A stretch of 64,000 nt of DNA from Corynebacterium rhinophilum (GTDB taxonomy: Bacteria > Actinomycetota > Actinomycetes > Mycobacteriales > Mycobacteriaceae), in assembly GCF_030227225.1 (NCBI RefSeq), contig NZ_JASPHQ010000013.1, positions 13,036-77,035 of the forward strand, in the 5' to 3' direction. The notes under the pieces were generated by a model. It made no database searches. It saw nothing but the letters and a program-made list of their open reading frames with translations, and was not told where the DNA came from. Numbering within the stretch: the first letter of the stretch is position 1; each line of letters begins with the position of its first letter. Below are positions 3,951 to 57,898 of the stretch, piece after piece. Position numbers and translations under genes: made by a program.

Positions 3951-5035
3951 TAAAATTCCACCACCGAACGTAGTACCTTGCCGTCCTTCATAGTTTGGAA
4001 GGCAGACTCGACATCGTCAAGCGCGATGCGCTCAGAAACAAACTTATCCAGCGGGAAGTTGCCGGCCTTGTGCAGGGCAACGTATGCGGGGAAGTCACGC
4101 TCCGGCAAGCAGTCGCCGTACCAAGCCGGCTTGATGGAACCGCCGCGGCCGTAAAGGTCGATGGCCGGGATGTCCACGTGGTCGGTCAGGTTAGGCACGC
4201 CCACCATCACCATGCGGCCGGCGTGATCGCGGGAGTAGAAGGCCTGGCGCCACGTCGGCTGGATGCCCACCGCGTCGATGGAAACATCCGTGCCGAAGCC
4301 GCCCGTGAGATCGCGCACCGCATCGATAACCTCCTGCTCCGACATGCCCTTCGAGCAAATGGTGTCGGTGGCACCGAACTCGCGCGCCGTCTCCAGCTTG
4401 GACTCATCAATGTCTACGGCGATGATCTTCGCCGCGCCCGCCAGCTTCGCACCAGCAATCGCTGCCACACCGACACCGCCGCAGCCGAAGATGGCTACGG
4501 ACTCGCCCAGCTGGATATCGCCGGTGTTGACGGAAGCGCCCAGGCCAGCCATGATGCCGCAGCCCAACAGGCCAGCAGCGGCAGGATCCATCTCATCAAC
4601 CTTGGTGCACTGGCCCTCGTGGACCAAGGTCTTCTCCGCGAAAGAACCGATGCCCAGCGCAGGGGTGAGCTCGGTGCCGTCCTCCAAGGTCATGGCCTTG
4701 GAAGCGTTGTGGGTATTGAAGCAGTACTTGGGCTCGCCCTTCTTGCAAGCGCGACACTCGCCGCATACTGCGCGCCAGTTCAGGACGACGAAATCGCCCT
4801 CCTCCACGTGGGTGACCGCAGAACCTACGGTCTCCACCACGCCTGCCGCCTCGTGGCCCAGCAGGAAGGGGAAAGCGTCCTCGATGTCACCATCGCGGTA
4901 GGCCAAGTCTGTGTGGCATACACCGCAGGCCTGCACCCGCACGATGACGTCATTGGGGCCGGGCTCGGGAACGACGATATTTACGGTCTCAACTTCCGCG
5001 CCTTTAGAGCGGGCAATAACAGCTTTTACAGTCAT
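3950..5035 (-). CDS. mscR: S-(hydroxymethyl)mycothiol dehydrogenase
   Basis: NAD- and mycothiol-dependent formaldehyde dehydrogenase of the zinc alcohol dehydrogenase family (361 residues). Catalytic zinc ligands lie in [12 protein letters not shown] and GHEAAG; the structural zinc loop is [15 protein letters not shown]; the NAD site is [13 protein letters not shown]. Upstream in-frame codons exist, but the ATG at 5035 gives the family-typical MTVKAVIAR start and lies exactly 7 nt after a TATGGT hexamer, which suggests a leaderless mRNA. It is translationally coupled to the MBL hydrolase downstream. Confidence 0.93.
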
Positions 5036-5042
5036 GTCCACA

Positions 5043-5048
5043 ACCATA
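5043..5048 (-). promoter_or_regulatory. -10 box of leaderless mscR
   Basis: On the minus strand TATGGT is followed by 7 nt and the ATG at 5035. No Shine-Dalgarno sequence lies between. Confidence 0.55.
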
Positions 5049-5087
5049 CCTACATTTTCAATATGGCCGCGGTAATGAAAATGGTTG

Positions 5088-5906
5088 CTAGGAAGCCGCA
5101 ATCACGTTGGCCGCGTGCTCGTGGCCGCGCTGGTTCATGTGGATGGGCAAGTTGCCCGCGCCCGCCGTAAAGTCCACGAGACCTGCCCACATGCGGTCAT
5201 TCGCATTGGCGCACATGCCGTTATTGCGGGTCGATGGCTTCATGTCCAGGAATTGCACGCCCGTGCGGGCCGCCAGATCAACCTGCATCCACTGCGCCTT
5301 GTTTTCGTAGTCCTGAACCATGGGCAGGAAGGTCGAATCCAGCGGCGTCGGGCCAACGTGAACAAGGCAGTAGTGCGGCCCCGAACCGATGGTGGGGTAG
5401 CCCACGATCTGGATGCGGGCATTCGGTGCGGCGTGCTTAATCCGTTCAATCTGCGGGGCGGTGCGGTCCGTAAATTCCCGGCGAATCTGATCCATGTTCA
5501 GTTCGCGGTGGTTATAGGTGTCGTTGAAGCCGGTGGTAATCAGTACGCGCGCGGTATCTGGGGTCAGCGCGCCCGATCCGATGGCGGCATCCACCTGCTG
5601 CCAGATCTGCGGGCCATTGGACATCGACACCGCACCGGAGCAGGAGAAATCGCGCACCGGCAGCCCCATCTTGGCGCCGGCCCGCTTCGCATAGTTGAAG
5701 GAGGTGGGGCAGTTTTCCCCGATTACCCGCGTTGGATTGAAGCGGTCCTTCAAGTATTCCCCGCCGTTCGGATCCGCAATGACCGAGTCACCGAAGGAAA
5801 CGAGATTGCGCTCTGCCGCGCTAGCCTGCGGCGCCGCTACCGCCACGCCCACCACCGCAATCGCGGAAGCGACGACCGAAAATGCCTTGAGTTTTATAGA
5901 TTTCAT
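5088..5906 (-). CDS. Secreted SGNH/GDSL hydrolase
   Basis: Exported esterase or lipase of the SGNH fold (272 residues). It begins with a clear signal peptide (MKSIKLKAF, hydrophobic core, cleavage after ASA about residue 30). Block I is FGDSVIAD with the nucleophile Ser, block [12 protein letters not shown], and the C-terminal catalytic His is in [10 protein letters not shown]. Several Cys residues could form disulfides outside the cell. The start has an AAAAGG ribosome site about 8 nt upstream. The substrate is unknown; lipophilic corynebacteria use such enzymes on lipids, but the sequence does not show this. Confidence 0.88.
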
Positions 5907-6057
5907 TGAGAGACCTTTTCTTCACACCTTGTAACTTAAGTGCATATTAGTCACTCTGGTAACATTTTTCGAGTTAAAAGCAACACTATCTTTTCTTCTG
6001 ACGATATCGTTCGTAGTTATATTTTCGTTATCTTCTCTTTTCGGAGCTTTCTCTTCC

Positions 6058-7680
6058 ATGAAATTGTCTGATGTTCCCTTCCACGCCTCCGCGCTCAGCC
6101 AGTTCTTTCCTGCCCTCTTCAAGTCAGGGCTTATCACCCGGCAAGGCGGGCTTGGCGGGCAGCTCAAGCTCCTGCCCAACCTCGCGCGTTACCGCTTCAC
6201 CACGGCGCGCGAAATCGAGCAGGCCTATTTAACCTGCCCCGATCGCCTCGCGCTTATCGATGACGATGGCACCCTCACCTACCACCAGCTGCGATCCCAC
6301 GCGCAGAATTTCGCCCGCTACCTAGAGTCCTTGGAGCTGCCGGAAATCCGGCTCGGCGTCATGGCCCGCAACGGCCGCGGCATCATCATTCCTTTGGGCG
6401 CCAAGGGCTACGCCGGTGCCGGGATCTACCTACTCAATGTCGGTTCTTCCCCAGAGCAGCTCGCCGGCTGCATCGAAGAAAATGGCATTAACGTCCTCGT
6501 CATCGATGATGAATTCATCGATCGCGTCGATCCCAACCTCGATATTCCGGTCATTATCGCCCACGATACGGGGGCGAGCGATCTACCCACGCTCGATAAG
6601 ATCGTGAAGAATCCCATGGATATCGTGCTGCCCGCCTTTCCCAAGCACGGCCCCATCGTGCTGATGTCCTCCGGCACGACCGGCATCCCCAAGGGCATCG
6701 TGCGCCCCGAGCCGACCTTGCCGGTCGTACTCGCCTCCATCGTGGGCAATATCCCGTGGCGCGCCGATCAGCGCGTGCAGATGACGGCCTCCATCTTCCA
6801 CACCTGGGGCTGGGCCTGCATCAATATCGCCTTGGGGCTGCGCAATACCATCGTCACCCGCCGCGTTTTTGAACCGGAGCAGGTGCTTGATGATGTCCAA
6901 CGCTACCGCCTCGACGGCATGCTCTCCTCCCCCATCTTTTTCAAGCGCTTGGTGGATCACGATCCCGAGGGCGCTTTCGATACCTCGAGCCTGAACTTCA
7001 TAGCCTCTGCCGGCAATGCCCTTACCCCGCAGGTGGTCAAGGACACCAATGCGCGCTTCGGCCCCATCCTCTGCAATGTTTATGGTTCCACGGAGCTGGC
7101 GCTTGCCTCAACGGCCACGATGGAACAGGTCGCAGAAAACCCCGATGTGGTGGGCAAGGTGGCCAATGGCACCAAGCTGCGCATCCTCGATAAGGAGGGC
7201 CACCCCGTTCCCCGCGGCGAGGTGGGCGAAATCTACCTCACCAATTCCACCGCCATGACCGGCTATACCAACCCCAAGCTCAAGCTCAATCGGGTCGATG
7301 GGTTGCTGTCGATCGGCGATCTGGGGTACATCGACAAGCAGGGCTTCCTCCACGTCGTGGGCCGGGCCGATGACATGATCATCGTGGGCGGCGAGAATGT
7401 CCACCCCCAGTCCGTGACCGAGGTGCTCGAAGCCATGCCCGGCATCGATGAGGTGCATGCGTGTGGCGTGGAGGATAGCGAGACCTTCAGCCGCATCGCC
7501 GTCTGGGCGGTGCCTACTGCCGATGCCGCCGGCCGCGATCTGACTGCCGATGCCATCCGCGCCTGGGTGCACGATAAGCTCGCCGAGCACTCCGTGCCCC
7601 GCGACGTGCATTTCCTATCCAAGCTGCCGCGCAATGCCACCGGCAAGGTGGTTCCGCGCCTGCTTAAGCACGGCGACTAA
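6058..7680 (+). CDS. AMP-binding acyl-CoA synthetase
   Basis: ANL-superfamily adenylating enzyme of 540 residues, FadD type: carboxylate + ATP + CoA to acyl-CoA. It has the P-loop SSGTTGIPKG, the A5 motif VYGSTELA, the hinge region IGDLGYID followed by GRADDMIIVGGENVHP, and the C-terminal catalytic Lys in NATGKVVPR. A weak GGAG lies 11 nt before the ATG. The AT-rich upstream region (5907-6057) holds the 10-bp palindrome ACGATATCGT at 6001-6010, a possible repressor operator. Chain-length preference cannot be read from the sequence. Its last 17 nt overlap the convergent gene downstream. Confidence 0.88.
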   Translation: MKLSDVPFHASALSQFFPALFKSGLITRQGGLGGQLKLLPNLARYRFTTAREIEQAYLTCPDRLALIDDDGTLTYHQLRSHAQNFARYLESLELPEIRLGVMARNGRGIIIPLGAKGYAGAGIYLLNVGSSPEQLAGCIEENGINVLVIDDEFIDRVDPNLDIPVIIAHDTGASDLPTLDKIVKNPMDIVLPAFPKHGPIVLMSSGTTGIPKGIVRPEPTLPVVLASIVGNIPWRADQRVQMTASIFHTWGWACINIALGLRNTIVTRRVFEPEQVLDDVQRYRLDGMLSSPIFFKRLVDHDPEGAFDTSSLNFIASAGNALTPQVVKDTNARFGPILCNVYGSTELALASTATMEQVAENPDVVGKVANGTKLRILDKEGHPVPRGEVGEIYLTNSTAMTGYTNPKLKLNRVDGLLSIGDLGYIDKQGFLHVVGRADDMIIVGGENVHPQSVTEVLEAMPGIDEVHACGVEDSETFSRIAVWAVPTADAAGRDLTADAIRAWVHDKLAEHSVPRDVHFLSKLPRNATGKVVPRLLKHGD

Positions 7681-8140
7681 ATTTTTCAATGCCCCACCAC
7701 ATCGGTGGGGTAAAGAGCACGGCAACAAGCCAATAAATCAACCAGAAGCTGCCGTCTAGCCCTACCACCGCGATGCTAACTATAAGGATCGCAGCCGTCA
7801 CCGCACTGGCATATACGGATTTTCTTAAATTATTATCGGACTGATTCCCAGACTCGGTTTTCGACTTCCCGCTGAGTTTCCGATCAACTGCGCGTATGAT
7901 ATCGCCGCCAAAGACCAGCGAAAATGCGATATAAAAAGCTGCGAAACCGTGCATGAATCCCGCTTCGCCATCATTATGCATGGTGAAAAATGAGAAAATT
8001 AACAGGACTATGTCAATAATTGGCGTAGCGATAAAAAATACCAGTCCAATTCTTGGGGCCTTAACGATGTAGCGGAGAACACCACCCAGAATGAGGCACG
8101 CCCAAAAGAGAATTTCTGTTGCGACGGTAGCAATAAGCAA
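7664..8140 (-). CDS. Orphan four-helix membrane protein
   Basis: I do not recognise this protein. It has about four hydrophobic segments: residues 4-22, 30-50, 62-80 and a C-terminal pair from about 112. Between the second and third pair lies a polar loop (KLSGKSKTESGNQSDNN). The likely start is TTG at 8140, with GGGAG about 11 nt upstream; no better in-frame ATG is visible. Codon use is AT-richer than in neighbours (for example an AAATTATTATC run in the loop), so recent acquisition is plausible. It overlaps the end of the acyl-CoA synthetase gene. Confidence 0.6.
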   Translation of the reverse strand: MLIATVATEILFWACLILGGVLRYIVKAPRIGLVFFIATPIIDIVLLIFSFFTMHNDGEAGFMHGFAAFYIAFSLVFGGDIIRAVDRKLSGKSKTESGNQSDNNLRKSVYASAVTAAILIVSIAVVGLDGSFWLIYWLVAVLFTPPMWWGIEKFSRRA

Positions 8141-8231
8141 TGTATCGTCTGCTCCCTCATCAAGGCCATATGGCCTGCTTCTATTGAAGGAGAGTTTACA
8201 TTAAGGAAGAAACCCGCACAGATAAAAATGG

Positions 8232-8304
8232 AGCCGCCTGCGAGAATCGAACTCGCGACCTTTTCATTACGAGTGAAATGCTCTACCGACTGAGCTAAGG
8301 CGGC
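8232..8304 (-). tRNA. tRNA-Thr (CGT)
   Basis: The minus strand folds as a 73-nt cloverleaf: acceptor GCCGCCT/AGGCGGC, D-arm TAGCTCAGTCGGTAGAGCA, anticodon loop CTCGTAA with anticodon CGU, T-arm GCGAG-TTCGATT-CTCGC and discriminator U. CCA is not encoded. A 14-nt palindrome lies 2 nt upstream of its 5' end, and a TAGAAT -10 box lies at about 8327-8332. Confidence 0.95.
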
Positions 8305-8306
8305 GC

Positions 8307-8320
8307 GCTGCTTAAGCAGC
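8307..8320 (-). repeat. Palindrome in the 5' leader of tRNA-Thr
   Basis: GCTGCTTAAGCAGC is a perfect 14-nt palindrome 2 nt before the mature tRNA. The core CTGCTT/AAGCAG recurs directly before tRNA-Pro at 37449-37464. Confidence 0.6.
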
Positions 8321-8444
8321 ACTGGCGATTCTATCGCAGGGGTGGCGCGGAAAAGAAATCGGGGCTCAGGCCTGGTTTTGGCGGGCCGGTGTTAAACTCC
8401 GGCCCGATACTAGCGACGGTCCCGGTACTAGACAGCCCCCAGCG

Positions 8445-9644
8445 CTAAAGGCAGGCCCGCCGCAGCCTGCCCACCAAGCCGTCGAAGGCAATCTGCGTGC
8501 CCACGTTCTGGGTTAGCTGCTCGCGGCAATAAGAAATAGCGGACTGGCATTCCAAGAGGCCCTCCTCGCTCACCCGCTGCGCCAGCTCGCCAGATAGCCC
8601 CGCGAAATCCGGGTGGGTCATCTCCACCTGCGCGCCCACCTTTGTCATCAGCGCGTCGCGGTAAATTCCGGAGAGATCGACGAGCACTAGGTCGAGGTTA
8701 TCGATGACCCGTCGCTTCGCCCGCTTCTTGTGCTGTTCTTGTAGGTCCTTGATGGCGGAGCGGGCATCACGCTGCGCCTTCGCCGCGCCCTTGCCCTTCG
8801 CGCCCACGCCAAAGGTATTTTCCAGCTTGGCCAGCTCCGCTTCTTCTTCCTCCTTGTGCGATTCCTTCGCGTCCGCATCCACCAGCTTGAGAAGCGAGGT
8901 CACCGCCTGAAAGCCCTGGGATTCGTGGAAGATGTCCTCGGCCAGGTTGATGGCCACAGCGCGGCGTTTTTGCACCGTCGGCTCTGCCACCAAGTGGCGC
9001 GCCCTGCCCACGTGGCGCAGGGAAGTGACGGCGGCGAGGCGGGCATCGTGATCCGAGGCACCTTCGCTCACCAGCTGGGCAACGATATTGTCCACCGACG
9101 GCGAGGGGATGTACAGGTGCCGGCAGCGCGAGCGCAGGGTCTGGGAGAAATCCTCGGGGGCATCGGAAGGCGCGCACATGATAATCACGGTGCGCTCCGG
9201 CGGCTCCTCCACCGTCTTGAGCAGCGCGTTGGCACCATTATTGTTGAGGCGATCCGCGTTATTGAAGATCACCACGCGCCACGGGGCGACCGTGGGCAGG
9301 CTCGCGGCACGCCCGATGACCTCGCGCACCGTATCCACCGAGATGATGACCTCCTGCGGGTCCACCAAGACCAGGTCCGTGTGCTGCTTGGTGCCTAGCA
9401 CGGCGCGGCAGGCCTCGCATTTTCCGCAGCCCGGTTCCTCCGGATCCGTGCACATGAGCGCGGCCGCGAAATCGATTGCGGCCAAGGAACGCCCCGAACC
9501 GGGCGGGCCGGTAAAGAGCCAGGAATGGCTCATCGCCCGCGGATCTGCCCCCGGCATCCCCCGCGCCGCCCGCGCGGCACCCAAGATAGTGCGGGCCACA
9601 CCTGGGGTATCTGCCAATCGTTGCGCAACGCTTCCCGTATTCAC
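8445..9644 (-). CDS. holB: DNA polymerase III subunit delta'
   Basis: Clamp-loader subunit (399 residues) with an AAA+ fold. The P-loop GPPGSGRS carries Arg where Lys is usual, and is followed by a zinc-ribbon CGKCEAC and an EEPPERTVIIMC segment like that of DnaX. A charged linker (KEEEEAELAKL) precedes the C-terminal domain. The start is the GTG at 9644 (MNTGSVAQRLADTPG), since it sits 7 nt after a TAGGCT box and fits family length; upstream codons to 9794 would overlap the divergent cyclase gene. Synteny matches Rv3644c-Rv3645. Confidence 0.93.
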   Translation of the reverse strand: MNTGSVAQRLADTPGVARTILGAARAARGMPGADPRAMSHSWLFTGPPGSGRSLAAIDFAAALMCTDPEEPGCGKCEACRAVLGTKQHTDLVLVDPQEVIISVDTVREVIGRAASLPTVAPWRVVIFNNADRLNNNGANALLKTVEEPPERTVIIMCAPSDAPEDFSQTLRSRCRHLYIPSPSVDNIVAQLVSEGASDHDARLAAVTSLRHVGRARHLVAEPTVQKRRAVAINLAEDIFHESQGFQAVTSLLKLVDADAKESHKEEEEAELAKLENTFGVGAKGKGAAKAQRDARSAIKDLQEQHKKRAKRRVIDNLDLVLVDLSGIYRDALMTKVGAQVEMTHPDFAGLSGELAQRVSEEGLLECQSAISYCREQLTQNVGTQIAFDGLVGRLRRACL

Positions 9645-9651
9645 TCGCTCT

Positions 9652-9657
9652 AGCCTA
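9652..9657 (-). promoter_or_regulatory. -10 box of leaderless holB
   Basis: TAGGCT on the minus strand, then AGAGCGA, then GTG at 9644. The divergent cyclase gene has TACAGT (9668-9673) 8 nt before its ATG, so both start points sit in a gap of about 37 bp. Confidence 0.5.
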
Positions 9658-9681
9658 CTGGTCTTACTACAGTAAGTAGTT

Positions 9682-11214
9682 ATGAACAGACTATTGCGTG
9701 GCGCTCGTTGGCTTATGGGAACCCAATGGCCGGTATACGCTGCCTTGGTCTTGGGCGCCAATCTCATCGGCGCCATCGCGATCATGACCTTCATCCTCTA
9801 TTTCCTGCCCATGCCGGAAATCGAGGACTTTGCCGCCGAGCTGCCCAACCTCAAGGGCGTGGCGGCGGTCTACCTCATCTTTGCCGTCATCATCGGCATC
9901 GCCGCTACCCTGCTGCTCTTCCGCCCCGTGCTGGACTGGCAGCGCAATCCCGATGCGCACGATCCAAATATGGTGCGCACCCTCGTGCTGCGCATCCCCG
10001 TGTACCAATCCCTGGTCGCGGCCGCGGTCTGGCTCATCGGCATTATCCTGACGGTGGCTATCTCCAGCGGGCAATCCGGGCGGCTCGGGCTCGTCGTGGG
10101 TGTCTCCACCACCCTGGCGGGCCTAGTGGTCATCATCTTGACCTACCTGCAGGCCGAGCGCCTCGTGCGGCCCGTCGCTGCCCAAGCCGTCGCCCGCCGC
10201 TTTGAAGATTCCACCGTCGAACCACCCATCAAATACCGGCTGTTTTCCACCTGGCTGATGACCTCCGGCGTGCCGCTGCTCGGCATCGTGCTGGTGCTGT
10301 TGGGCCAGCACACCGGGCTCTTCTCCGGCGATGCCAGCGAAATCATCCCGGCCATCGTGGCACTGGCCCTCACCGCCCTGGCCACCGGGTTTATCGGCAC
10401 CAGCTTCGCCATCATGAGCGTGGTCGATCCCATCGTGGAGCTGCAGGATGCGATCAACCGCGTGCGCCGCGGCGAGGCCGATGCCGAGGTCGATATCTAC
10501 GATGGATCCGAGCTCGGCGTCCTGCAGGCGGGATTTAATGAGATGATGCGCGGGCTGCGCGAGCGCCAACGCGTCCGCGATATCTTCGGCCGCTACGTGG
10601 GCACCGAGGTGGCCCAGCGCGCCCTTGATGAGCGCCCCGAATTGGGCGGGGAGGATCGGAAGGTCGCGGTGCTGTTCATCGATGTCATCGGTTCCACCAC
10701 CTTCGCGGTCAACCACTCCCCCGAAGAAGTGGTCACGGAGCTCAATAAATTCTTCGAGCACGTCGTGACGGTGGTGCACCGCAATAAGGGCATCATCAAT
10801 AAGTTCCAAGGCGATGCCGCCCTCGCCGTCTTTGGCGCGCCGCTCAACGTGTACGACTCGACTTCGATGGCGCTGCAGGCCGCCCGCGAGCTGCGCGGCG
10901 AGTTGCGCGGGCTCGAGCTGCAGGCTGGCATCGGAGTCGCCTCCGGCCACGTGGTAGCAGGCCACATCGGCGGCGCGGATCGCTTCGAGTACACCGTCAT
11001 CGGCGATGCCGTCAACGAGGCCGCCCGCCTGACCGAAATGGCCAAGGACACCCCCGGCCAGGTCCTGACCAACGCTGCTACCTTAAAGACCGCCAACGAG
11101 GCCGAGCAGGCCCGCTGGACCGTCATGAAATCCATCGAGCTGCGCGGGCGCCGCCGCATGACCCAGCTGGCGCGCCCCATCCGCGCCAGCCTGGCAGAAA
11201 GGTGCGAAATCTAA
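9682..11214 (+). CDS. cyaB: Membrane adenylate cyclase (class III) with HAMP domain
   Basis: A 510-residue membrane enzyme making cAMP. About six transmembrane segments (residues about 15-240) are followed by a HAMP linker (about 240-295) and a cytoplasmic catalytic domain (about 325-500). All key residues are present: metal-binding Asp334 (FIDVIGST) and Asp378 (FQGDAA), adenine-selecting Lys374 and Asp442, and the transition-state pair Asn445/Arg449 (NEAAR). It therefore should be an active adenylate rather than guanylate cyclase. The ortholog (Rv3645) sits in the same place in mycobacteria. Its product is the ligand of GlxR, encoded at 30735. Confidence 0.93.
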   Translation: MNRLLRGARWLMGTQWPVYAALVLGANLIGAIAIMTFILYFLPMPEIEDFAAELPNLKGVAAVYLIFAVIIGIAATLLLFRPVLDWQRNPDAHDPNMVRTLVLRIPVYQSLVAAAVWLIGIILTVAISSGQSGRLGLVVGVSTTLAGLVVIILTYLQAERLVRPVAAQAVARRFEDSTVEPPIKYRLFSTWLMTSGVPLLGIVLVLLGQHTGLFSGDASEIIPAIVALALTALATGFIGTSFAIMSVVDPIVELQDAINRVRRGEADAEVDIYDGSELGVLQAGFNEMMRGLRERQRVRDIFGRYVGTEVAQRALDERPELGGEDRKVAVLFIDVIGSTTFAVNHSPEEVVTELNKFFEHVVTVVHRNKGIINKFQGDAALAVFGAPLNVYDSTSMALQAARELRGELRGLELQAGIGVASGHVVAGHIGGADRFEYTVIGDAVNEAARLTEMAKDTPGQVLTNAATLKTANEAEQARWTVMKSIELRGRRRMTQLARPIRASLAERCEI

Positions 11215-13152: not shown

Positions 13153-13178
13153 GCCCGCCACCTTACTAATTTCTTCGC

Positions 13179-16172: not shown

Positions 16173-16300
16173 TTCGACTTCATCCCTTTCGATGATGCGA
16201 ACATTAAAATTTGTGCGCTTTCAGCAATCGCCCTTAGCGTACACAGGTGGTTTATACCGTTCTTCGCACCATATACTCGGTAACACCAAAAGGCTTTGTA

Positions 16301-16319: not shown

Positions 16320-16418
16320 ACCGAACCGGTCTATACTGACCTTTTTAGAAAGTCCAGCAGCTGTGAAAGCATTGTTGGGGACGATAGCACACCCACAACA
16401 CACCCCGTGGAGGATTAG

Positions 16419-25480: not shown

Positions 25481-25486
25481 AGGATA
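25481..25486 (-). promoter_or_regulatory. -10 box of the Rv3662c-like gene
   Basis: TATCCT, then AATGTAT, then ATG at 25473 on the minus strand. Confidence 0.5.
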
Positions 25487-30400: not shown

Positions 30401-30406
30401 AGCTTA
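30401..30406 (-). promoter_or_regulatory. -10 box of leaderless nth
   Basis: TAAGCT, then TGGCGGC, then ATG at 30393 on the minus strand. Confidence 0.5.
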
Positions 30407-32340: not shown

Positions 32341-32346
32341 AGCCTA
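32341..32346 (-). promoter_or_regulatory. -10 box of the Rv3677c-like MBL gene
   Basis: TAGGCT, then GGTAGGC, then ATG at 32333 on the minus strand; a separate promoter inside the ridA-MBL spacer. Confidence 0.45.
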
Positions 32347-32810: not shown

Positions 32811-32969
32811 TTACTCTGCCACCTCGCGCTTGAAGTAGGCCACCACGTTCTCCGGGTTGGGGCCAGGGGTGATGGAGACCAATTCCCATCCGTCTTCGCC
32901 CCAAGAGTCAAGGATCTGCTTGGTGGCGTGGGTCAGTACTGGTGCGGTTGCGTATTCCCATTTAGTCAT
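32811..32969 (-). CDS. DUF4177 small protein
   Basis: A 52-residue protein, MTKWEYATAPVLTHA at the N-terminus and WGEDGWELVSITPG in the middle, typical of DUF4177; it matches Rv3678A in position. Its stop abuts the ridA ATG. A TAGAAT box exactly 7 nt before its ATG, with no ribosome site, indicates a leaderless mRNA that starts the DUF4177-ridA transcription unit. Function unknown. Confidence 0.85.
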   Translation of the reverse strand: MTKWEYATAPVLTHATKQILDSWGEDGWELVSITPGPNPENVVAYFKREVAE

Positions 32970-32976: not shown

Positions 32977-32982
32977 ATTCTA
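32977..32982 (-). promoter_or_regulatory. -10 box of leaderless DUF4177-ridA mRNA
   Basis: TAGAAT, then AAACCCC, then ATG at 32969: a near-consensus -10 hexamer. Confidence 0.65.
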
Positions 32983-33516: not shown

Positions 33517-33522
33517 TAGGGT
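33517..33522 (+). promoter_or_regulatory. -10 box of leaderless ponA
   Basis: TAGGGT, then ATTGGGC, then GTG at 33530. Confidence 0.5.
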
Positions 33523-36469: not shown

Positions 36470-36476
36470 GCCTTTC

Positions 36477-36482
36477 AATATA
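36477..36482 (-). promoter_or_regulatory. -10 box of leaderless yqeY
   Basis: TATATT, then GAAAGGC, then ATG at 36469 on the minus strand. Confidence 0.6.
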
Positions 36483-36499
36483 CGTCCATTTAAGGCAGG

Positions 36500-36505
36500 T
36501 AGTGT
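36500..36505 (+). promoter_or_regulatory. -10 box of the leaderless metallophosphoesterase gene
   Basis: TAGTGT, then AGAAGCT, then GTG at 36513. It lies only 18 bp from the divergent yqeY -10 box, so the two -10/-35 regions overlap. Confidence 0.55.
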
Positions 36506-36512
36506 AGAAGCT

Positions 36513-43292: not shown

Positions 43293-43298
43293 TAGATT
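43293..43298 (+). promoter_or_regulatory. -10 box of leaderless sigC
   Basis: TAGATT, then CATTCAG, then GTG at 43306. Confidence 0.6.
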
Positions 43299-45539: not shown

Positions 45540-45590
45540 ATGCGCCGGGCACGGCTTCGCAGCTCTGCCCGGCGCGGTGGTGCCTTGCGG

Positions 45591-47922
<2,332 letters not shown>

Positions 47923-48150
47923 GGTGTGGTTGCCACCTTTCGTTTTTAAAGGCACCCCTGGGCGCGGACGCGCCACAGAAATACCTGTCGGACACTAGTC
48001 AAATTCCTATGCTACCTCGCAAGGCGCTACACCTCATCATAATTCCGAAACAATACTTTTATTTTATTCATACTCACCCCCGTGCGCGTGCCATGCGGCG
48101 GGGGCGGGGGCGACATCGATAAGCAAAATGCATCTCCGTCACTTTTTTAC
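47923..48150. other. Gap between lysC and the DMT gene
   Basis: About 230 bp without a gene. It carries the lysC promoter and an AT-rich stretch around 48040-48080, followed by the G-run GCGGGGGCGGGGGC near 48105. No repeat or RNA seen. Confidence 0.4.
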
Positions 48151-48156
48151 TAGCGT
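48151..48156 (+). promoter_or_regulatory. -10 box of the leaderless DMT transporter gene
   Basis: TAGCGT, then TGAGCGG, then GTG at 48164. This shortens the gene by 12 codons compared with the ATG at 48128. Confidence 0.5.
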
Positions 48157-48163
48157 TGAGCGG

Positions 48164-49006
48164 GTGTTAAGCAACCTCCTCGCCGTATTCTTCGCGCTCG
48201 CCTCCGCGCTTACGGTTGCTTGGGGCACGGTCGTTCGCCACCGCATCGCCCTTGAAGCAGACGATTCAGTCATGCGCTCCGCTATGACCAATCCACTGTG
48301 GTGGGTCGGCACTGGCGCAGCCATCCTCGCCTATGGCCTCCAGGTCGTTGCCCTGGGCTTTGGTACCTTGCTGGTGGTCCAGCCCATTTTGGTGCTCTCT
48401 CTCATGTTTACCTTGCCACTTTCAGCCTGGTACGCCAAGCGCCCCATGCCCGTGCACGAGACCTTCTGGTCCATTGCGCTCACGGTGGCGGTCGGGGTGA
48501 TGGTGGTCTACGGCCGCCCCGTTGCCGGCAATCCCCGGCCCGAGTGGAGCCAGTGGTGGCCCGCGCTGCTATTGGGCCTGGCCACCCTGGTCGCGTTGGG
48601 CGTGGCCGGCCATAAATTCCGCGAGCAGCGCCCGCTCGCCCTGGGCACGGCCTGCGGCGTCATCTACGGTTTCGTCGCCCTGCTTTCTAAGGCCGTGGTG
48701 GACATCTTCACCCACGAGGGTTTGAGCGTCTTGGTAGGCAGCTGGCAGTTCTACGGCCTCATCGGCCTCGCCCTGACCGGCACCGTGGTGCAGCAATACT
48801 CCTTTAACGCCGGCCCCCTGGCGCAGTCGCTGCCGGCCATGACCATCTTCGAGCCCATCGTTGCCTTTGGCCTGGGCTATATGGTCTTGGGCGAAAAATT
48901 CCTCATCGATTCCACCGCCGGCTGGCTCGTCATGGTGGCCGCGCTCGGCGTCATGATTGCCGCGACCATCATTTTGTCCCGCAACCCGGTCAGCCAGCGC
49001 AGCTAG
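48164..49006 (+). CDS. DMT/EamA-like membrane transporter
   Basis: A 280-residue inner-membrane protein with about nine or ten helices, drug/metabolite transporter superfamily: GTLLVVQPILVLSLMFTLP in the first half and SLPAMTIFEPIVAFGLGYMVLGE in the second. Substrate unknown. Starting at GTG 48164 puts the first helix (LSNLLAVFFALASAL) directly at the N-terminus. Overlaps the convergent gene by 4 nt. Confidence 0.82.
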   Translation: MLSNLLAVFFALASALTVAWGTVVRHRIALEADDSVMRSAMTNPLWWVGTGAAILAYGLQVVALGFGTLLVVQPILVLSLMFTLPLSAWYAKRPMPVHETFWSIALTVAVGVMVVYGRPVAGNPRPEWSQWWPALLLGLATLVALGVAGHKFREQRPLALGTACGVIYGFVALLSKAVVDIFTHEGLSVLVGSWQFYGLIGLALTGTVVQQYSFNAGPLAQSLPAMTIFEPIVAFGLGYMVLGEKFLIDSTAGWLVMVAALGVMIAATIILSRNPVSQRS

Positions 49007-50094: not shown

Positions 50095-50165
50095 ATCAGC
50101 ATGGTACGCCACGCGCCCAGGCGTCCCGCTGAATGAAATATGTTGCCACACCGTGAGATCCTCTG

Positions 50166-50171
50166 TAGTGT
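50166..50171 (+). promoter_or_regulatory. -10 box of the leuL-leuA mRNA
   Basis: TAGTGT, then GACCGGT, then ATG at 50179. The sequence TGTGA-CCGGTA-TGACA (50169-50184) overlapping the start point resembles a GlxR site (9 of 10). Confidence 0.55.
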
Positions 50172-50178
50172 GACCGGT

Positions 50179-50232
50179 ATGACATTGCGGAACGACCTAC
50201 TCCTTATCTGCCGCGGCGGGATTTCGGCCTAA
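50179..50232 (+). CDS. leuL: leuA leader peptide
   Basis: A 17-residue frame, MTLRNDLLLICRGGISA, with three consecutive Leu codons (CTA CTC CTT, 50197-50205) and a fourth before them. It ends 97 nt before leuA and is followed by alternative stems, the form of a leucine-sensing attenuator. The ATG is also the likely first base of the mRNA. Confidence 0.8.
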   Translation: MTLRNDLLLICRGGISA

Positions 50233-50286
50233 ACCTACGGCCAGCGCCCCGTCGCGGAGTCTGGCAATCCTTAGCCCAGCTGGCCG
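50211..50286 (+). promoter_or_regulatory. leuA attenuator
   Basis: Two stems that exclude each other: CCGCGGCGGG (50211-50220) with CCCGTCGCGG (50248-50257), and CGGCCAGC (50238-50245) with GCTGGCCG (50279-50286). A ribosome held at the Leu codons would cover the first arm and favour the second stem. No T-run follows, so the mechanism may be Rho- or translation-based. Confidence 0.6.
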
Positions 50287-50314
50287 TCGCACTTCCCGAC
50301 ACCAAACACATTAA

Positions 50315-52147
<1,833 letters not shown>

Positions 52148-52181
52148 CGCGGGCGCGGGCCGACATGGTAGAAGATCGACT

Positions 52182-52964
52182 ATGCCTTCTTCTACCTACC
52201 TCATCCCCCACCGCGGCCTCGGCGCGGTGCAGGCCTTGCCCATTCACGGCGCATCGGTGAAGGGCACGGAGGATTTTACCGTCACCCTGGCTCCCAGCCA
52301 GGAGGGCGGTTTAAGCGTGGAAGCACAGGGCCAGATCGGCACCATCAGCGCCGCGGACCGCACGGAATACCCCGAGATCGACCTCCTTTTCCGCGCCGGT
52401 CTCACCCCAGCCGCCACAGCCCAGCCGCATGCCGATGGCCACGTCGCCCTCCTGCTTCCCCGCCCCGGGCTCTGCCTGCCGGCGAATAATCCGCCCGGCG
52501 GGCCCTATACGATGCTCGGCTATGCCCCGCCCATCGATATCACCGATCTCCCCGCAGATCTCGATATCCCGGCCCAGGCCCGGATGCACGTGCTAGTCAA
52601 CCTGGTGCCTTCCACCGACGCCGTCGATGTCTTCTTCGGCCCTAAATTCCTCACCACCCTGTCCCCGGGTCCCTCGCTGCCCCCGCTTGCCGATGCCCCC
52701 ATCCTCGCCCACGCCTACCACGCCCCGCGCGGCAACGATCGCGTGCTGAGCATCTACGCCGGCGATCCGCTGCCCGCTTCCAACGAAGACTCCGTGGCCG
52801 TTGCCACCCCGACCACGCAGGCGGCGACCGAGACCTTCGAAACCAGCAGCTTTCGCGCCGTCACCGCCACCCCGGAGCCCACGCGCCGCACTGGGTGGTG
52901 GGTCACGGCCATTGCCGTGGTCGCCGTCGTGGCGCTGGTGACCGTATTCATCGTCGCGGTTTAG
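52182..52964 (+). CDS. Tail-anchored protein of unknown function
   Basis: A 260-residue protein not recognised as a known family. A soluble domain of about 200 residues, rich in Pro and Ala, with strand-like segments (HVALLLPRPGLCL, MHVLVNLVPS, VDVFFGPKF), is followed by a Thr-rich linker and a C-terminal membrane helix (WWVTAIAVVAVVALVTVFIV). TAGAAG sits 7 nt before the ATG. Between leuA and the pseudo-exonuclease gene. Confidence 0.65.
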   Translation: MPSSTYLIPHRGLGAVQALPIHGASVKGTEDFTVTLAPSQEGGLSVEAQGQIGTISAADRTEYPEIDLLFRAGLTPAATAQPHADGHVALLLPRPGLCLPANNPPGGPYTMLGYAPPIDITDLPADLDIPAQARMHVLVNLVPSTDAVDVFFGPKFLTTLSPGPSLPPLADAPILAHAYHAPRGNDRVLSIYAGDPLPASNEDSVAVATPTTQAATETFETSSFRAVTATPEPTRRTGWWVTAIAVVAVVALVTVFIVAV

Positions 52965-53035
52965 TGTCCACTAAACCGGATTAGGCAACGAAAAGGTCCG
53001 GCGCGCCCTGTCCCGCCACAGGAATTCCGGGATAC

Positions 53036-53041
53036 TAGACT
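53036..53041 (+). promoter_or_regulatory. -10 box of the pseudo-exonuclease gene
   Basis: TAGACT, then AAGGCTG, then ATG at 53049. Confidence 0.55.
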
Positions 53042-53048
53042 AAGGCTG

Positions 53049-54563
53049 ATGAATAACACACCTGGCCCCTCCCCACAGTCGCCGCAGGCTCCCTCGCCGA
53101 CGACTATGGCGTCCCAGCATGCGGCTAGGACCCACGCCCAGGCGTCCCCTCACTCCGCAGCCAACTCCGCCGCCCAACCGGAGACCAAGGCTGCGGCACA
53201 GCAGCGCAAGCCGGGCCCCAACTCCCAAAGCGAATCCAGCACCAGCGTCCCCAACAGCACAGGTATGGCCAAACCAGGCCCGCGCCGGCCTCGGCCCCGT
53301 CCACGCCGCGCCGTCCGCCCCTCCGGCGGGCCGGCGACACCGAAAACCCCAGCCGACCCCGCTGCTTCAGCTGCTCCGTCCGCATCCAGCGCGGACAGCG
53401 CACCGCAAAAACAGCCGGACAAGGCCGAGACCGTCACCAAGCACCCCTACGTAGCCCTCACGCTGCAGACCACGGGCATCCACCCCTCGACCGGCCGCAT
53501 CGTCACCATCGATGCGGTGGCCTTTGATAACGCCGGCGATATTGGCCAGCGCTTCCACGCCGTGCTCAAGCCGGATATCGATGCCGGCCCACACCACCTC
53601 CACGGGCTGACCATCGCGGATATCGAGCAGGCGCCCGCCTTTAGCAGAGTCCTCAAATCGCTGGATAAGCTTATCGATGGCCGCACCCTCGTCGTTCACG
53701 ATATCCCCTATACCTGGGGCTTTATCGTCGCCGAGGCCCGCCGCGCCATGATGACCGCCGCACGTCAAAACCGCGCGCGCAACCGCGGTCGCAATAAAGG
53801 CAAGCGCCGCCGCCAAAAGGTGGGACACATGCCCGCGCCCGTGCGCATCATCGATACCTTGGCCACCTCGTATGCGCAGGGCGTGCGGTCGAATGATGTG
53901 CGGCTGAGGGGCGTCGCTAAGCAGAATGGCCTGGCTGCCGATCCGAAGGCAACGGTGGAACGCGCCCGCCGCCCGGAGCAGGAGACCTCGCGCGAGCAGA
54001 CGGAGCTGCTCATCCAGCTCTACCAGCACCAACAACGCGGCCCGGTGCGCAGCTATGCCCCAGACGATGTCCGCGCCGACCGCTTTGGCCTGCAGCGCTC
54101 GCACGTGCGCGTCGATGCCGCCGAAGCCCCCGTGCAGCACCACAACCCCGGCAAGTACGAGCCCGGCAAGGAGCTGCGCCGCGGCATGGAAATCGTCGTG
54201 GCCCCCGAAATTCTGGAGGACCCGGATACGATTATCTCCGCCCTCATGCGCGAGGAGCTGAACTATTCAGAGAAGCTCACCCGCGAGGCATCGCTTGTCG
54301 TGTGCAATGTCACCACGGATCTCGTGGGCAAGGCCATGCACGCCCAGCGCAAGGGCATCCCGCTGATGTCTGATGCCGCGTTTCTCGATGCCCTCACCCG
54401 CATCGAAGACCCCACCACAGCCCAGCCGCCGGCGCGGCGCCAGCCCCCGCAAAAAAGCGGCGGGAATAACCAGAGCAAGAGCCAGAAACGGCGGCGCAGG
54501 CGCGGCGGGCGCGGCCGGGGGCGGCGAAATTCTGGCGGCTCGGCACCCAAGAACAACGCCTAA
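53049..54563 (+). CDS. DnaQ-like exonuclease-fold protein lacking catalytic acids, with BRCT domain
   Basis: A 504-residue protein: disordered Pro/Ala/Arg-rich head (1-130), a DnaQ/DEDDh exonuclease fold (about 132-330), a BRCT-like domain (about 375-452) and an RG-rich basic tail (480-497). The ExoI motif that should read DxExT is VALTLQTTG (Asp to Thr, Glu to Gln), ExoII HNxxFD is HDIPYTW, and ExoIII shows no HxxxxD. A basic insert (RQNRARNRGRNKGKRRRQK, 239-257) lies within the fold. Probably a nucleic acid-binding scaffold without nuclease activity. Confidence 0.78.
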   Translation: MNNTPGPSPQSPQAPSPTTMASQHAARTHAQASPHSAANSAAQPETKAAAQQRKPGPNSQSESSTSVPNSTGMAKPGPRRPRPRPRRAVRPSGGPATPKTPADPAASAAPSASSADSAPQKQPDKAETVTKHPYVALTLQTTGIHPSTGRIVTIDAVAFDNAGDIGQRFHAVLKPDIDAGPHHLHGLTIADIEQAPAFSRVLKSLDKLIDGRTLVVHDIPYTWGFIVAEARRAMMTAARQNRARNRGRNKGKRRRQKVGHMPAPVRIIDTLATSYAQGVRSNDVRLRGVAKQNGLAADPKATVERARRPEQETSREQTELLIQLYQHQQRGPVRSYAPDDVRADRFGLQRSHVRVDAAEAPVQHHNPGKYEPGKELRRGMEIVVAPEILEDPDTIISALMREELNYSEKLTREASLVVCNVTTDLVGKAMHAQRKGIPLMSDAAFLDALTRIEDPTTAQPPARRQPPQKSGGNNQSKSQKRRRRRGGRGRGRRNSGGSAPKNNA

Positions 54564-54577
54564 CCCACTTCCCCGGC

Positions 54578-54583
54578 TACCCT
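54578..54583 (+). promoter_or_regulatory. -10 box of murT
   Basis: TACCCT, then AGAGGGC, then ATG at 54591. AGAGGG could also act as a ribosome site, but it is too close to the ATG for that. Confidence 0.45.
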
Positions 54584-54590
54584 AGAGGGC

Positions 54591-55868
54591 ATGAGTTTTT
54601 CAGTCCCGGGTGCCTTGAAGAAGTTGCGCACCACCGCCGCGACATCCGCCGCGAAGCTGGCCACCACCGCTTCCCGCGCCACCGGCCGGGGCGCCGGCGG
54701 AATGATCGGCGGCCTTATCGCCAATGCCATTGACCCCTCCATCATGACCAACCTGGGCGGTGGGCGCCCGGCCGTGCTGGTCACCGGCACCAACGGCAAG
54801 TCCACCACCACCCGCATGCTCGCCGCCGCGGTCCGCGCCGAACACCAGGTCGCCACCAATGACGGCGGCGATAACATGGACGCCGGCATCATCTCCGCGC
54901 TCATGGCGGGCAAGGACGCCTCACACCTCGTCCTCGAGGTCGACGAGCTGCACGTGCCGCACGTCGCCGATAACCTCAACCCGCAGGCGCTTGTGCTGCT
55001 CAACCTCACCCGCGATCAGCTCGACCGCGTCGGCGAGATCAACAAGATCGAGCGCGCTCTCCGCGGCGCCGTGGAGGCCCACCCGGACATGTTGGTCATC
55101 GCCAATTGCGATGACGTGCTCATGACCTCAGTGGCCTATGACGCCAAGAACGTCATTTGGGTCTCCGCCGGCGCCGGCTGGCTCGGCGATTCCGTCACCT
55201 GCCCGCGCACCGGCGGCCACGTCGTGCGCACCGAGGATGACTGGTACGCAGTAAAGCCGCTTGCCGATGGCCGCGAGTTCCGCCGCCCGCAGCCGACGTG
55301 GGGCATCGACAAGCATGGCGTTATTACCCCCACCGCAAAGCGCCCGCTGAACCTGGCGCTGCCGGGCCGCGCCAATCGAGGTAATGCGGCACAGGCCATC
55401 GCCGCGGCTGTCGAGGGCTTCGGCGTGGACTTGGATCGCGCTATTGCCGCGGCAGAAAGCATCGATGACGTCGCCGGCCGGTATTCCACCATCCACTGGA
55501 AGGGCCGCGAGATTCGCCTGCTGCTGGCCAAGAATCCCGCCGGCTGGCAAGAGGCCCTGTCCATGGTGGACCGCAGCGCCGATGGGCTGGTCATCGCCAC
55601 GAACGGGCAGGTTGCCGATGGCATCGACATGTCCTGGCTCTGGGACGTGAAATTTGAGGGCTTTAATGGGCTCAGCGTCAAGGCCGCCGGCGAGCGCGGC
55701 ACTGACCTTGCCGTCCGCCTCGTCTACGCGGATATCACCCACGAGCTCATCCCGGATCCCATGGATGCGCTCGCCACCTGTCCCGAGGGCCGCATCGAGG
55801 TCCTTGCCAATTACACCGCCTTCCGCGATCTGAAAAAGGCCCTGTCCAAGGAGGCTAATAATGCTTAA
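54591..55868 (+). CDS. murT: Lipid II isoglutaminyl synthase, ATPase subunit MurT
   Basis: Mur-ligase-like subunit (425 residues) that activates D-Glu of lipid II for amidation. The P-loop is TGTNGKSTTTRML, with LEVDELHVPH as the Mur-type acid motif, and a C-terminal DUF1727 domain. The internal zinc-ribbon of MurT (four Cys) is reduced here to a single Cys in TCPRTGGHVV. Overlaps gatD by 8 nt. Confidence 0.94.
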   Translation: MSFSVPGALKKLRTTAATSAAKLATTASRATGRGAGGMIGGLIANAIDPSIMTNLGGGRPAVLVTGTNGKSTTTRMLAAAVRAEHQVATNDGGDNMDAGIISALMAGKDASHLVLEVDELHVPHVADNLNPQALVLLNLTRDQLDRVGEINKIERALRGAVEAHPDMLVIANCDDVLMTSVAYDAKNVIWVSAGAGWLGDSVTCPRTGGHVVRTEDDWYAVKPLADGREFRRPQPTWGIDKHGVITPTAKRPLNLALPGRANRGNAAQAIAAAVEGFGVDLDRAIAAAESIDDVAGRYSTIHWKGREIRLLLAKNPAGWQEALSMVDRSADGLVIATNGQVADGIDMSWLWDVKFEGFNGLSVKAAGERGTDLAVRLVYADITHELIPDPMDALATCPEGRIEVLANYTAFRDLKKALSKEANNA

Positions 55869-56634
55869 TATCGGCCTAGTGCTTCCCGATGTCCTCGGTA
55901 CCTACGGCGATGACGGCAACGCCCTCGTCCTGCGCCAACGCGCCCGCATGCGCGGCCTCGACGCCGAGATTCACCCCATCCGGCTTGGCGAACCCGTGCC
56001 CGAGACGCTGGATATTTATACCATCGGCGGCGGCGAAGACACCGCGCAGATTCTTGCCGCAGAACACCTCATTGCCGATGGCGGGCTAACCCGCGCCGCC
56101 ACGTCCGGCCGCCCCATCTTGGCCATTTGCGCCGGCCTGCAGGTCCTGGGCGAGTCCTTCCGCGCTTCCGGCCGGGTTATCGATGGCGTCGGGCTTATCG
56201 ATGCCACCACCGCCGGCATGCAAGACCGCGCCATCGGCGAGGTATCCTCCACTCCTACCGGCGCCGGCGTGACCGCAGATCTCACCGAGCCGCTCACCGG
56301 CTTCGAAAACCACTTGGGCGCGACCATCCTCGGCCCGTCCGCCCAACCGCTGGGAACCCTCACCCGCGGCAATGGCAATGCCGACCAGGCCGCCACCGCA
56401 GACCTCGCCGACGGCTCCACCCAACGCACCTACGAAGGCGCCGTGCAGGGCAGCGTCATCGCCACCTATATGCACGGCCCCGCCCTGGCCCGCAACCCGC
56501 AGCTCGCGGATCTGCTCCTCGCCCAAGCCATGGGTGTCCCGCTCGCCGATCTCGATCCGCTGGATATCCCCGCCGTCGACCGCCTGCGCACCGAGCGCTT
56601 CAACGCCGCCGAGCCACCGCGCTCCCAGCGCTAA
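55861..56634 (+). CDS. gatD: Lipid II isoglutaminyl synthase, glutaminase subunit GatD
   Basis: Class I glutamine amidotransferase-like subunit (257 residues) that supplies ammonia to MurT. Nucleophile Cys in ILAICAGLQVLG, catalytic His in ATYMHGPALARNP. Translationally coupled to murT. Confidence 0.95.
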   Translation: MLNIGLVLPDVLGTYGDDGNALVLRQRARMRGLDAEIHPIRLGEPVPETLDIYTIGGGEDTAQILAAEHLIADGGLTRAATSGRPILAICAGLQVLGESFRASGRVIDGVGLIDATTAGMQDRAIGEVSSTPTGAGVTADLTEPLTGFENHLGATILGPSAQPLGTLTRGNGNADQAATADLADGSTQRTYEGAVQGSVIATYMHGPALARNPQLADLLLAQAMGVPLADLDPLDIPAVDRLRTERFNAAEPPRSQR

Positions 56635-56708
56635 GCCTGTGGATAACTTCGCCAATTCTCGGCCCTCACGACCCAAAAGGGCCGATTTGAGCCAAGTTAT
56701 CCACAGGC
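56635..56708. repeat. Inverted pair of perfect DnaA boxes in a nested hairpin
   Basis: 15-bp perfect arms (56635-56649 / 56694-56708), each containing the DnaA consensus TTATCCACA (56697-56705, and its complement at 56638-56646). Inside is a second stem, CGGCCCT/AGGGCCG (56660-56666 / 56678-56684). It begins at the gatD stop codon and may also end that transcript. Confidence 0.85.
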
Positions 56709-56745
56709 CGGGCGCGGCCGCCTTGTAGCTCCCAGGCCCCAACCC

Positions 56746-56751
56746 TAGGCT
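56746..56751 (+). promoter_or_regulatory. -10 box of the HNH gene
   Basis: TAGGCT, then GCGGAGC, then ATG at 56759. Confidence 0.5.
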
Positions 56752-56758
56752 GCGGAGC

Positions 56759-57898
56759 ATGACGTTATTGGAGCAGCTGGGGGACATCGCCAAGCGCGGC
56801 GTAGACCTGATTGAAGAAGCCTACGCCGCCGCTGACCTGCCCCTGCCTGCGGACCACGCGCGCGAGCTGCGCCGCACTGCCGAGGCTTTCCTCGCGCCCA
56901 CCAGCCACTCGCGCTATCAACGCCGCACCCTTGCCGCCGCGCGCCGCAACCAGCACAGCCTGGCCACGCTCGCGCTCATCGCCCGCCGTTCCCAGCGAGT
57001 GAAAAATCCCACCGAGCGCTGGCGCTTCCGCGAAACCCTGTGCGCTACCGCCGGGACCACCGCCGAAGTGTCCCGCGCCGCCACACGCCTGCTGCGCGAA
57101 ATCGCCCCACCGCCCGAGCGCGAAGACGGCGGGCGCCGCATCCTGCACGGCGAGAAAACCACGCTGAGCTTTACCGGCCCCGCCGCCGAAATGGCCGATA
57201 TCTGGGCCACCGCGAAGGATAATCCCCTCGCCTGGCTCACCGGCTCCCGTGCCGTCGCGCCGGCCAGCGTGACCACCAATGTCATCATCGAGCTGCCGGA
57301 TTACCTGAAAATCCTGCGCGGCGAGGGCTCAGAAGTCCGCCTCGCCATGACCAACGGTGCCACCATCACCGGCGCTGATCTCCTCCGTCGCACGCTCGCC
57401 GGCGCCGGGCTTTTTACCCTCATCCACCCCGCGGAAGGCCCCGTCAACCTCTACCGTGCCCGCCACGCCTCCGCCAAGCAGCGCCGCATGCTCGAGGCCG
57501 AAGGCGCGCGCTGCGCCTGGCCCGCTTGCAGGCGCCCCGCCGCTGAATGCCAAGCCCACCACATCTTCGAATACGCCCGCGGTGGCCACACCCACCCGGC
57601 GAATATGTGCCTTTTGTGCCCGTACCACAATTCCATCAACGGCCTTCCGGGGCGGGGGCGGATGGCGCGCATCAACGGGCGCATCGCCTGGCTGCCGCCG
57701 CATCCGCGCCACGCGGGCCCACCGCCCCGTCATCAGACCCTCCGGGTTCCGCTGCACGGCCGCACTCGGCCTCGCCACCGGAGCCGAATGCGCCTCCCCC
57801 AGTCTTTACTGGCCGCGCGCCACGCGGGCCCACCGCCAACGTGCCCTAAACCCCAAGAAACCAAAAGTCCCGGGCCGGTGCTGCGGACACCTAGATAG
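56759..57898 (+). CDS. HNH endonuclease-domain protein (DUF222/13E12-like)
   Basis: A 379-residue protein: N-terminal alpha-helical part (DUF222-like, about 1-230), then an HNH domain at about 245-300 with [19 protein letters not shown] and [12 protein letters not shown], giving His-His-Asn-His and the structural Cys pairs. The last 80 residues are Pro/Arg/His-rich and low in complexity. Such genes occur in several copies in corynebacteria and mycobacteria (13E12 repeats) and have no known role. Ends inside recR. Confidence 0.82.

Follow-up and report, generated by a model that had tools for sequence, protein, structure and literature searches.

Which signal sets the start of messages whose start codons lack a ribosome-binding site? 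The question is raised by a 64-kb stretch of Corynebacterium rhinophilum DNA (62% G+C; assembly GCF_030227225.1, contig NZ_JASPHQ010000013.1, positions 13,036 to 77,035; hereafter the window), which comes from a genome of 2.47 Mb in 92 contigs. From the letters alone, an original prediction had listed fifteen genes with a TANNNT hexamer exactly 7 nt ahead of the start codon, mostly with no ribosome site between, and had read them as leaderless. The observation as a whole was confirmed, and the leaderless reading is right in its core. Judging from the sequence evidence below, we put the probability that the listed starts are served by ordinary leaderless sigma-A promoters of Corynebacterium at about 93%.

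TANNNT stands with exactly 7 bases to an ATG or GTG at all 15 listed starts (Table 1). A Shine-Dalgarno core, defined as AGGA, GGAG or GAGG located 4–16 bases upstream of the start, is found at none of them. Fourteen of the fifteen are protein genes; the remaining start, 50179, belongs to a 17-codon leader open reading frame (ORF) ahead of leuA.

The motif had itself been used in picking these starts, and we therefore counted it over all candidate starts. Genes were called from codon usage alone (54 in the window), and TANNNT was scored before every in-frame ATG, GTG and TTG near gene 5′ ends, which gave 199 candidates in the window. The hexamer occurs 13 times at distance 7 and three times each at 6 and 8; the remaining distances from 0 to 30 hold ~1.5 on average (range 0–4). 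The 13 candidates at distance 7 comprise 12 of the listed starts, with 9644, 50179 and 53049 lying outside the automatic candidate range, plus 55879, a probable chance match within a gatD-like gene. The same peak emerged from an 863-kb sample of the genome that includes the window and contains 697 called genes. Boxes before ATG and GTG candidates number 31 at distance 6, 113 at 7 and 51 at 8; the other distances from 0 to 40 average 14.8 (standard deviation 5.7). The surplus at 6–8 amounts to ~150 starts (195 minus 44), or 22% of the called genes. TTG starts show no peak: six boxes lie at distance 7 in the 863 kb against a background of ~5, and the window profile is also flat. Genome-wide, TANNNT-N7-ATGA matches 202 times and its reversed control 67 times.

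Samples of three further Corynebacterium genomes were counted in the same way. In two of them (G014 and G029), distance 7 holds 48 and 50 boxes, compared with mean counts of 5.0 and 4.3. The third (G039; 74% G+C, 400-kb sample, L341-L360) has a weak peak, with 6, 2 and 1 boxes at distances 6, 7 and 8 against 0.2; leaderless geometry is rare there (8 of 232 genes), and distance 6 is stronger than 7. Counting by distance, the check proposed with the original prediction, thus revealed enrichment only at 6–8 in both the window and the 863 kb. An exact 7-nt spacing is too strong as a rule, since the genome-wide peak spans 6–8. The assumed chance rate of 1 in 64 was conservative, because TANNNT occupies only 1 in 212 window positions.

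Conservation was scored in orthologs without regard to the promoter: the start lying closest to the aligned first residue was taken, and TANNNT at 6–8 was then recorded. Orthologs with at least 90% protein identity were excluded, as were alignments beginning after residue 20, coverage below 40% (50% in the first round) and cases whose nearest start lay beyond 45 nt (30 nt in the first round). The set holds 13 of the 14 protein genes, 33530 having no covering locus in relatives. The box is present at the nearest start in 275 of 332 cases, compared with 8 of 398 for 12 comparison genes of the window. The comparison list initially contained 20 window genes. Two of these, 9682 and 61618, were moved to a separate group because their box, in the window as in relatives, lies at 8 (82/472 if they are left in), and six that had 0–3 relatives in the first round were dropped (5906, 29735 and 40787, none each; 38970, two; 46676 and 63518, three each). 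The comparison set still includes the genes 50022 and 58559, whose window copies carry a box at 6 or 8. Where the start aligns exactly, the box is found in 181 of 191 cases; where it is shifted, in 94 of 141, and box and codon therefore tend to move together. Among relatives with a box at 7, in which T, A and T are fixed by the selection of cases, the middle three bases and the spacer vary. Per gene, conservation is complete at, for example, 32333 and 32969 and lowest at 5035.

The choice originally proposed for two disputed starts is supported. The box at the nearest start favours 25473 over 25479 (20 of 24 relatives) and 48164 over 48128 (38 of 46), and 42 of the 46 relatives align exactly at 48164. 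The suggestion that five more genes use a 6–8 nt spacing held in part: in five window genes the box does lie at 6 or 8, and of the four tested in relatives, 9682 and 61618 keep it. The dnaX-like gene at 61618 retains GTG and a TANNNT at 6–8 down to 44% identity and is among the steadiest of the set. The gene with starts 50022/50094 has the box in 0 of 19 relatives and that at 58559 (box before start 58550) in 0 of 52; both look like chance and were rejected as leaderless, and with two of four genes not conserved we did not accept every box at 6 or 8. No relative locus covered 29735, which also has a box at 6 or 8. Genes said to keep ribosome sites fared unevenly: glxR has the core in 10 of 10 relatives and TANNNT at 6–8 in none of the 10, and the case of katA is weak (core in 8 of 25).

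The geometry, its enrichment, its restriction to ATG and GTG and its conservation were observed directly. For where the RNAs begin, which sigma factor acts and how ribosomes initiate, the model that we favour draws on published work on related species. RNA polymerase with the housekeeping sigma factor would recognise TANNNT as a –10 element and start RNA ~7 (6–8) bases downstream, with the A or G that opens the start codon as the first RNA base. An RNA that starts on the codon has no 5′ untranslated region (5′-UTR) and therefore no Shine-Dalgarno site; ribosomes would initiate on the 5′-terminal AUG or GUG. In the two divergent pairs 9644/9682 and 36469/36513, this mode would allow two promoters together with two start codons to fit in 37 and 43 bp, respectively.

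Several findings weigh against this model. No box lies at 6–8 in 57 of the 332 cases, and a Shine-Dalgarno core stands beside the box in 21 of 349 box-bearing relatives of the claimed and extra genes. At 5035, 9 of 24 relatives have a Shine-Dalgarno core and no box; because its orthologs split in this way (box in 13 of 24), the mode of initiation at this gene appears to turn over within the genus. A second promoter further upstream could add leadered transcript forms. In C. glutamicum, TANNNT is reported for ~97% of mapped start sites with a spacer of 3–11 nt (PMC3890552), so that some transcripts here may carry a few extra bases.

The last point can be extended to a rival in which the boxes are real –10 elements and the RNA 5′ end lies a few bases off, leaving a leader of 1–5 nt or falling inside the codon, with another ribosome rule. 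The breadth of the peak (6–8, not 7 alone) and the 80 5′-UTRs of 1–10 nt described in C. glutamicum (PMC3890552) fit this idea. Yet the box-to-start distance stays at 6–8 in the 94 shifted starts, and the exclusion of TTG is what one would predict were transcription to begin on the codon's first base; we consider this rival improbable. Equally improbable is that the boxes are control sites, or starts of non-coding or antisense transcripts, with the genes themselves read mainly from longer, leadered upstream transcripts. Genes such as 53049, 54591 and 56759 closely follow genes on the same strand, from which read-through could reach them, and the relatives of 5035 include some able to use Shine-Dalgarno starts; however, none of the 15 starts has a Shine-Dalgarno core, and the divergent pairs keep both boxes with just 37 and 43 bp between start codons. 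Chance combined with selective reading, in which starts were chosen because TANNNT happened to sit at 7, may account for 55879, 50022/50094 and 58559 and could still hold for 33530, but as a general explanation it is refuted by the choice-free counts, the TTG result and the relatives, and we give it almost no weight.

The leaderless sigma-A promoter thus preferred is already known in the genus and well supported; the novelty of the finding itself is low, and the genes described here are further examples. Reports on C. glutamicum and C. diphtheriae describe the same TANNNT –10, +1 on ATG or GTG, absence of TTG and correction of start annotations (PMC3890552, PMC5784534). In C. glutamicum, 707 of 2,147 mRNAs (33%) are leaderless, all with AUG or GUG (PMC3890552). 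In C. diphtheriae, 20% of genes are leaderless and UUG is described only with a ribosome site (PMC5784534). The ~22% of sampled genes estimated here from the excess is comparable, and the accounts available of these two species reveal no clear difference; GTG makes up 5 of 15 starts here versus ~21% there, in a small sample. Motif, position and the ATG/GTG rule are likewise shared with TA-led genes across Actinobacteria (PMC3160421) and with mycobacterial leaderless mRNAs (PMC3898074, PMC4633059). In mycobacteria a 5′-terminal ATG or GTG is described as necessary and sufficient, with CTG and TTG ineffective (PMC4633059). A survey placed TANNNT ~12 bp before bacterial starts; within one phylum-level group, read here as Actinobacteria, 86 of 89 genomes had leaderless genes (PMC3160421).

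One of the extra genes has a mapped counterpart. The product of 9682, named cyaB by likeness to the C. glutamicum gene, has 510 residues and begins MNRLLR; C. glutamicum cyaB encodes a 508-residue protein beginning MSRLLR and has a single start mapped by RNA sequencing, presumably giving a leaderless mRNA (PMC7026483). The leaderless prediction for 9682 is therefore backed in a relative. The originally suggested lean of leaderless genes to housekeeping and regulatory roles is not supported, and on this point published genome-wide data disagree among themselves: no significant preference is reported in C. glutamicum (PMC3890552), a depletion of active-growth functions in Mycobacterium tuberculosis (PMC3898074) and a rise in information storage in the multi-genome survey (PMC3160421). 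What the geometry offers for this species is better start codons, through a simple rule: an ATG or GTG 6–8 nt after TANNNT, checked in relatives. The same check weeds out chance cases such as 50022 and 58550.

A lead outside the leaderless finding comes from head-to-head pairs. Both window pairs keep both boxes almost throughout their relatives (Table 1; one further yqeY/metallophosphoesterase locus had no partner), with a box-to-box gap that is often 7–10 and ranges from 1 to 90. The scoring takes the best-fitting start pair and so favours finding both boxes; a pair that we take to be rsmI/pmt, one-sided in 20 of 27 loci, shows that a positive outcome is not forced. A scan made without gene calling over 1.66 Mb (own genome, G014 and G029), with boxes at 6–8, ORFs of 80 codons or more on either side and a box-to-box gap of –6 to 60, returned 43 divergent start pairs with both boxes. 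A few of these are alternative starts within a single gene pair, and one or more orthologous pairs were counted in two genomes. In 10 of the 43 the gap is –2, so that the boxes share one TA, and gaps of –4, –3 and –1 to 3 are empty. A presumed murB/DUF2505 pair was counted in both the own genome and G014, which leaves nine distinct shared-TA pairs at most. Control box positions 2–4, 11–13 and 16–18 gave 4, 0 and 4 pairs in total and 1, 0 and 2 at gap –2. With gene calling, a shared TA was found in 7 of 47 pairs (G039 included), and divergent genes with candidate starts 24 bp apart have both boxes in 6 of 9 pairs; G039 was omitted from this last count and from the 43-pair scan, and no G039 pair was listed up to 160 bp.

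The peak at gap –2 was noticed after looking, which weakens its statistics; the conservation of the murB/DUF2505-like pair (L316:17946-17971, L391-L420) was tested afterwards. Two leaderless starts 23–24 bp apart with a shared TA are found in 29 of 30 loci, which include G014, the source of the pair, and the own genome. The presumed rsmI/pmt pair, which shares its TA in G029, was rejected as a conserved example: just 7 of the 27 loci scored carry the two boxes, and 2 of those 7 have the shared TA. All four of these gene names are presumptive, given from the look of the sequence.

We propose, at roughly even odds, that Corynebacterium has a class of head-to-head leaderless pairs sharing a single TA, of the form CAY-N7-ANNNTANNNT-N7-RTG, whose genes are coupled through polymerase competition for one site. 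About 30 bp would then hold both promoters and both start codons, and the two window pairs would be looser versions of this plan. At the window pairs, a polymerase on one side would probably keep out one on the other. If the coupling is real, murB, holB and cyaB would each be tied to a neighbour via one shared polymerase site with a leader on neither side; in C. glutamicum the cyaB product is described as the source of cyclic AMP, the effector of GlxR (PMC7026483). Alternatively, the shared TA may reflect low sequence cost alone, with no coupling of expression.

Bidirectional promoters of Escherichia coli and Salmonella are similar in that divergent transcription arises from overlapping or adjacent –10 boxes (PMC10268837, PMC12825309). 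There, transcription start sites (TSSs) most commonly lie 18 bp apart (PMC10268837), a spacing arising from a near-symmetric TATAAT, and in many cases the second RNA does not code for protein. In the Corynebacterium pairs, by contrast, both RNAs would be coding and leaderless, and the preferred overlap is one in which the boxes share a TA and the predicted TSSs are 24–26 bp apart. The favoured overlap would be shifted from the E. coli arrangement because the middle of TANNNT is degenerate and, with a shared TA, two boxes require four fixed bases, not six. The E. coli type is defined by overlapping –10s and TSSs 7–25 bp apart; the shared-TA pairs straddle its upper limit, and the window pairs, with predicted TSSs 38 and 44 bp apart, fall outside it. 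A study of M. tuberculosis describes 'closely juxtaposed divergent promoters' as common and includes one divergent pair in which both genes are leaderless (PMC3898074). The accessible literature on leaderless, divergent, bidirectional and overlapping promoters yielded no description of the shared-TA leaderless arrangement, though one may exist elsewhere in print.

The leader ORF at 50179 would start by the same leaderless mechanism. It contains three leucine codons in a row, and a leader ORF with at least three consecutive leucine codons precedes leuA in 62 of 65 loci from Corynebacterium to Rhodococcus and Hoyosella. TANNNT lies at 6–8 before the start in all 62, a count that includes close relatives and in which the box-bearing ORF was preferred where several qualified. 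Short ORFs with a leucine run before leuA are known as the LEU element (PMC1262725) and from C. glutamicum (PMC4046766) and C. diphtheriae (PMC5784534), and the C. diphtheriae peptide MNRANLLLLRRGGSQA resembles MTLRNDLLLICRGGISA. The present set differs in having leaderless geometry in all 62 leader ORFs; the C. diphtheriae leu leader is given without a TSS in the available text of its report (PMC5784534). An ilvB leader that is leaderless or without a ribosome site has also been reported in this group of bacteria. Pairing of at least 6 nt between the leucine codons and the leuA ribosome site is found in 21 of the 62 leaders and in 22 of 62 controls, that is, without excess. Most of the 62 peptides have an R-G-G or R-D-G stretch soon after the leucine run (LLLICRGG, LLLLRRGG, LLLGCRDG), from Corynebacterium to Rhodococcus (L001-L080).

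Table 1. Predicted –10 boxes, head-to-head intergenic regions and leader ORF of the window, with shared-TA pairs of the own genome. Fractions give relatives with a box at 6–8 unless stated otherwise.
Feature	Position	Strand	Start and gene	Relatives
–10 TATGGT	5043..5048	-	7 nt before ATG 5035, mycothiol-dependent formaldehyde dehydrogenase (TIGR03451)	13/24
–10 TAGGCT	9652..9657	-	7 nt before GTG 9644, DNA polymerase III delta' (holB, NCBIfam)	28/34
–10 TACAGT	9668..9673	+	8 nt before ATG 9682, adenylate cyclase (Pfam), cyaB-like; outside the listed 15	25/25
–10 TATCCT	25481..25486	-	7 nt before ATG 25473, 236 aa, no NCBIfam/Pfam match	20/24
–10 TAAGCT	30401..30406	-	7 nt before ATG 30393, endonuclease III (nth)	8/8
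–10 TAGGCT	32341..32346	-	7 nt before ATG 32333, metallo-beta-lactamase-fold hydrolase (models below cutoff)	25/25
–10 TAGAAT	32977..32982	-	7 nt before ATG 32969, 52-aa Sp36/DUF4177 small protein (32811-32969)	19/19
–10 TAGGGT	33517..33522	+	7 nt before GTG 33530, PBP1A-like penicillin-binding protein	
–10 TATATT	36477..36482	-	7 nt before ATG 36469, YqeY-like	23/25
–10 TAGTGT	36500..36505	+	7 nt before GTG 36513, metallophosphoesterase	17/23 (nearest start)
–10 TAGATT	43293..43298	+	7 nt before GTG 43306, ECF sigma factor (best model PRK12535)	27/32
–10 TAGCGT	48151..48156	+	7 nt before GTG 48164, DMT transporter	38/46
–10 TAGTGT	50166..50171	+	7 nt before ATG 50179, leuA leader peptide	
–10 TAGACT	53036..53041	+	7 nt before ATG 53049, DnaQ-like exonuclease	6/6
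–10 TACCCT	54578..54583	+	7 nt before ATG 54591, MurT-like	46/60
–10 TAGGCT	56746..56751	+	7 nt before ATG 56759, 379 aa, no NCBIfam/Pfam match	5/6
–10 TAAACT	61627..61632	-	8 nt before GTG 61618, DNA polymerase III gamma/tau (dnaX-like); outside the listed 15	49/49
Intergenic holB/cyaB	9645..9681		37 bp, both –10 boxes, 10 bp between boxes	both boxes 29/29, own copy excluded
Intergenic yqeY/metallophosphoesterase	36470..36512		43 bp, both –10 boxes, 17 bp apart	both boxes 27/28 scored, own copy excluded
17-codon leader peptide MTLRNDLLLICRGGISA	50179..50232	+	upstream of leuA (50330-52147, 2-isopropylmalate synthase)	
Own-genome shared-TA start pairs (gap –2, five in 863 kb)	C11 163158/163182; C11 238145/238170; C11 245539/245565; C7 6043/6068; C8 33061/33087			

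For the MurT-like gene, the closest named matches listed are from Corynebacterium sp. ACRPS (99%) and from C. tuberculostearicum SK141, C. yonathiae and others (96–97%). These matches place the window in a corynebacterium of that group, in agreement with the genus named in the original prediction. At the gathering threshold, Rfam gave three matches in the window, namely two tRNAs and the signal recognition particle (SRP) RNA.

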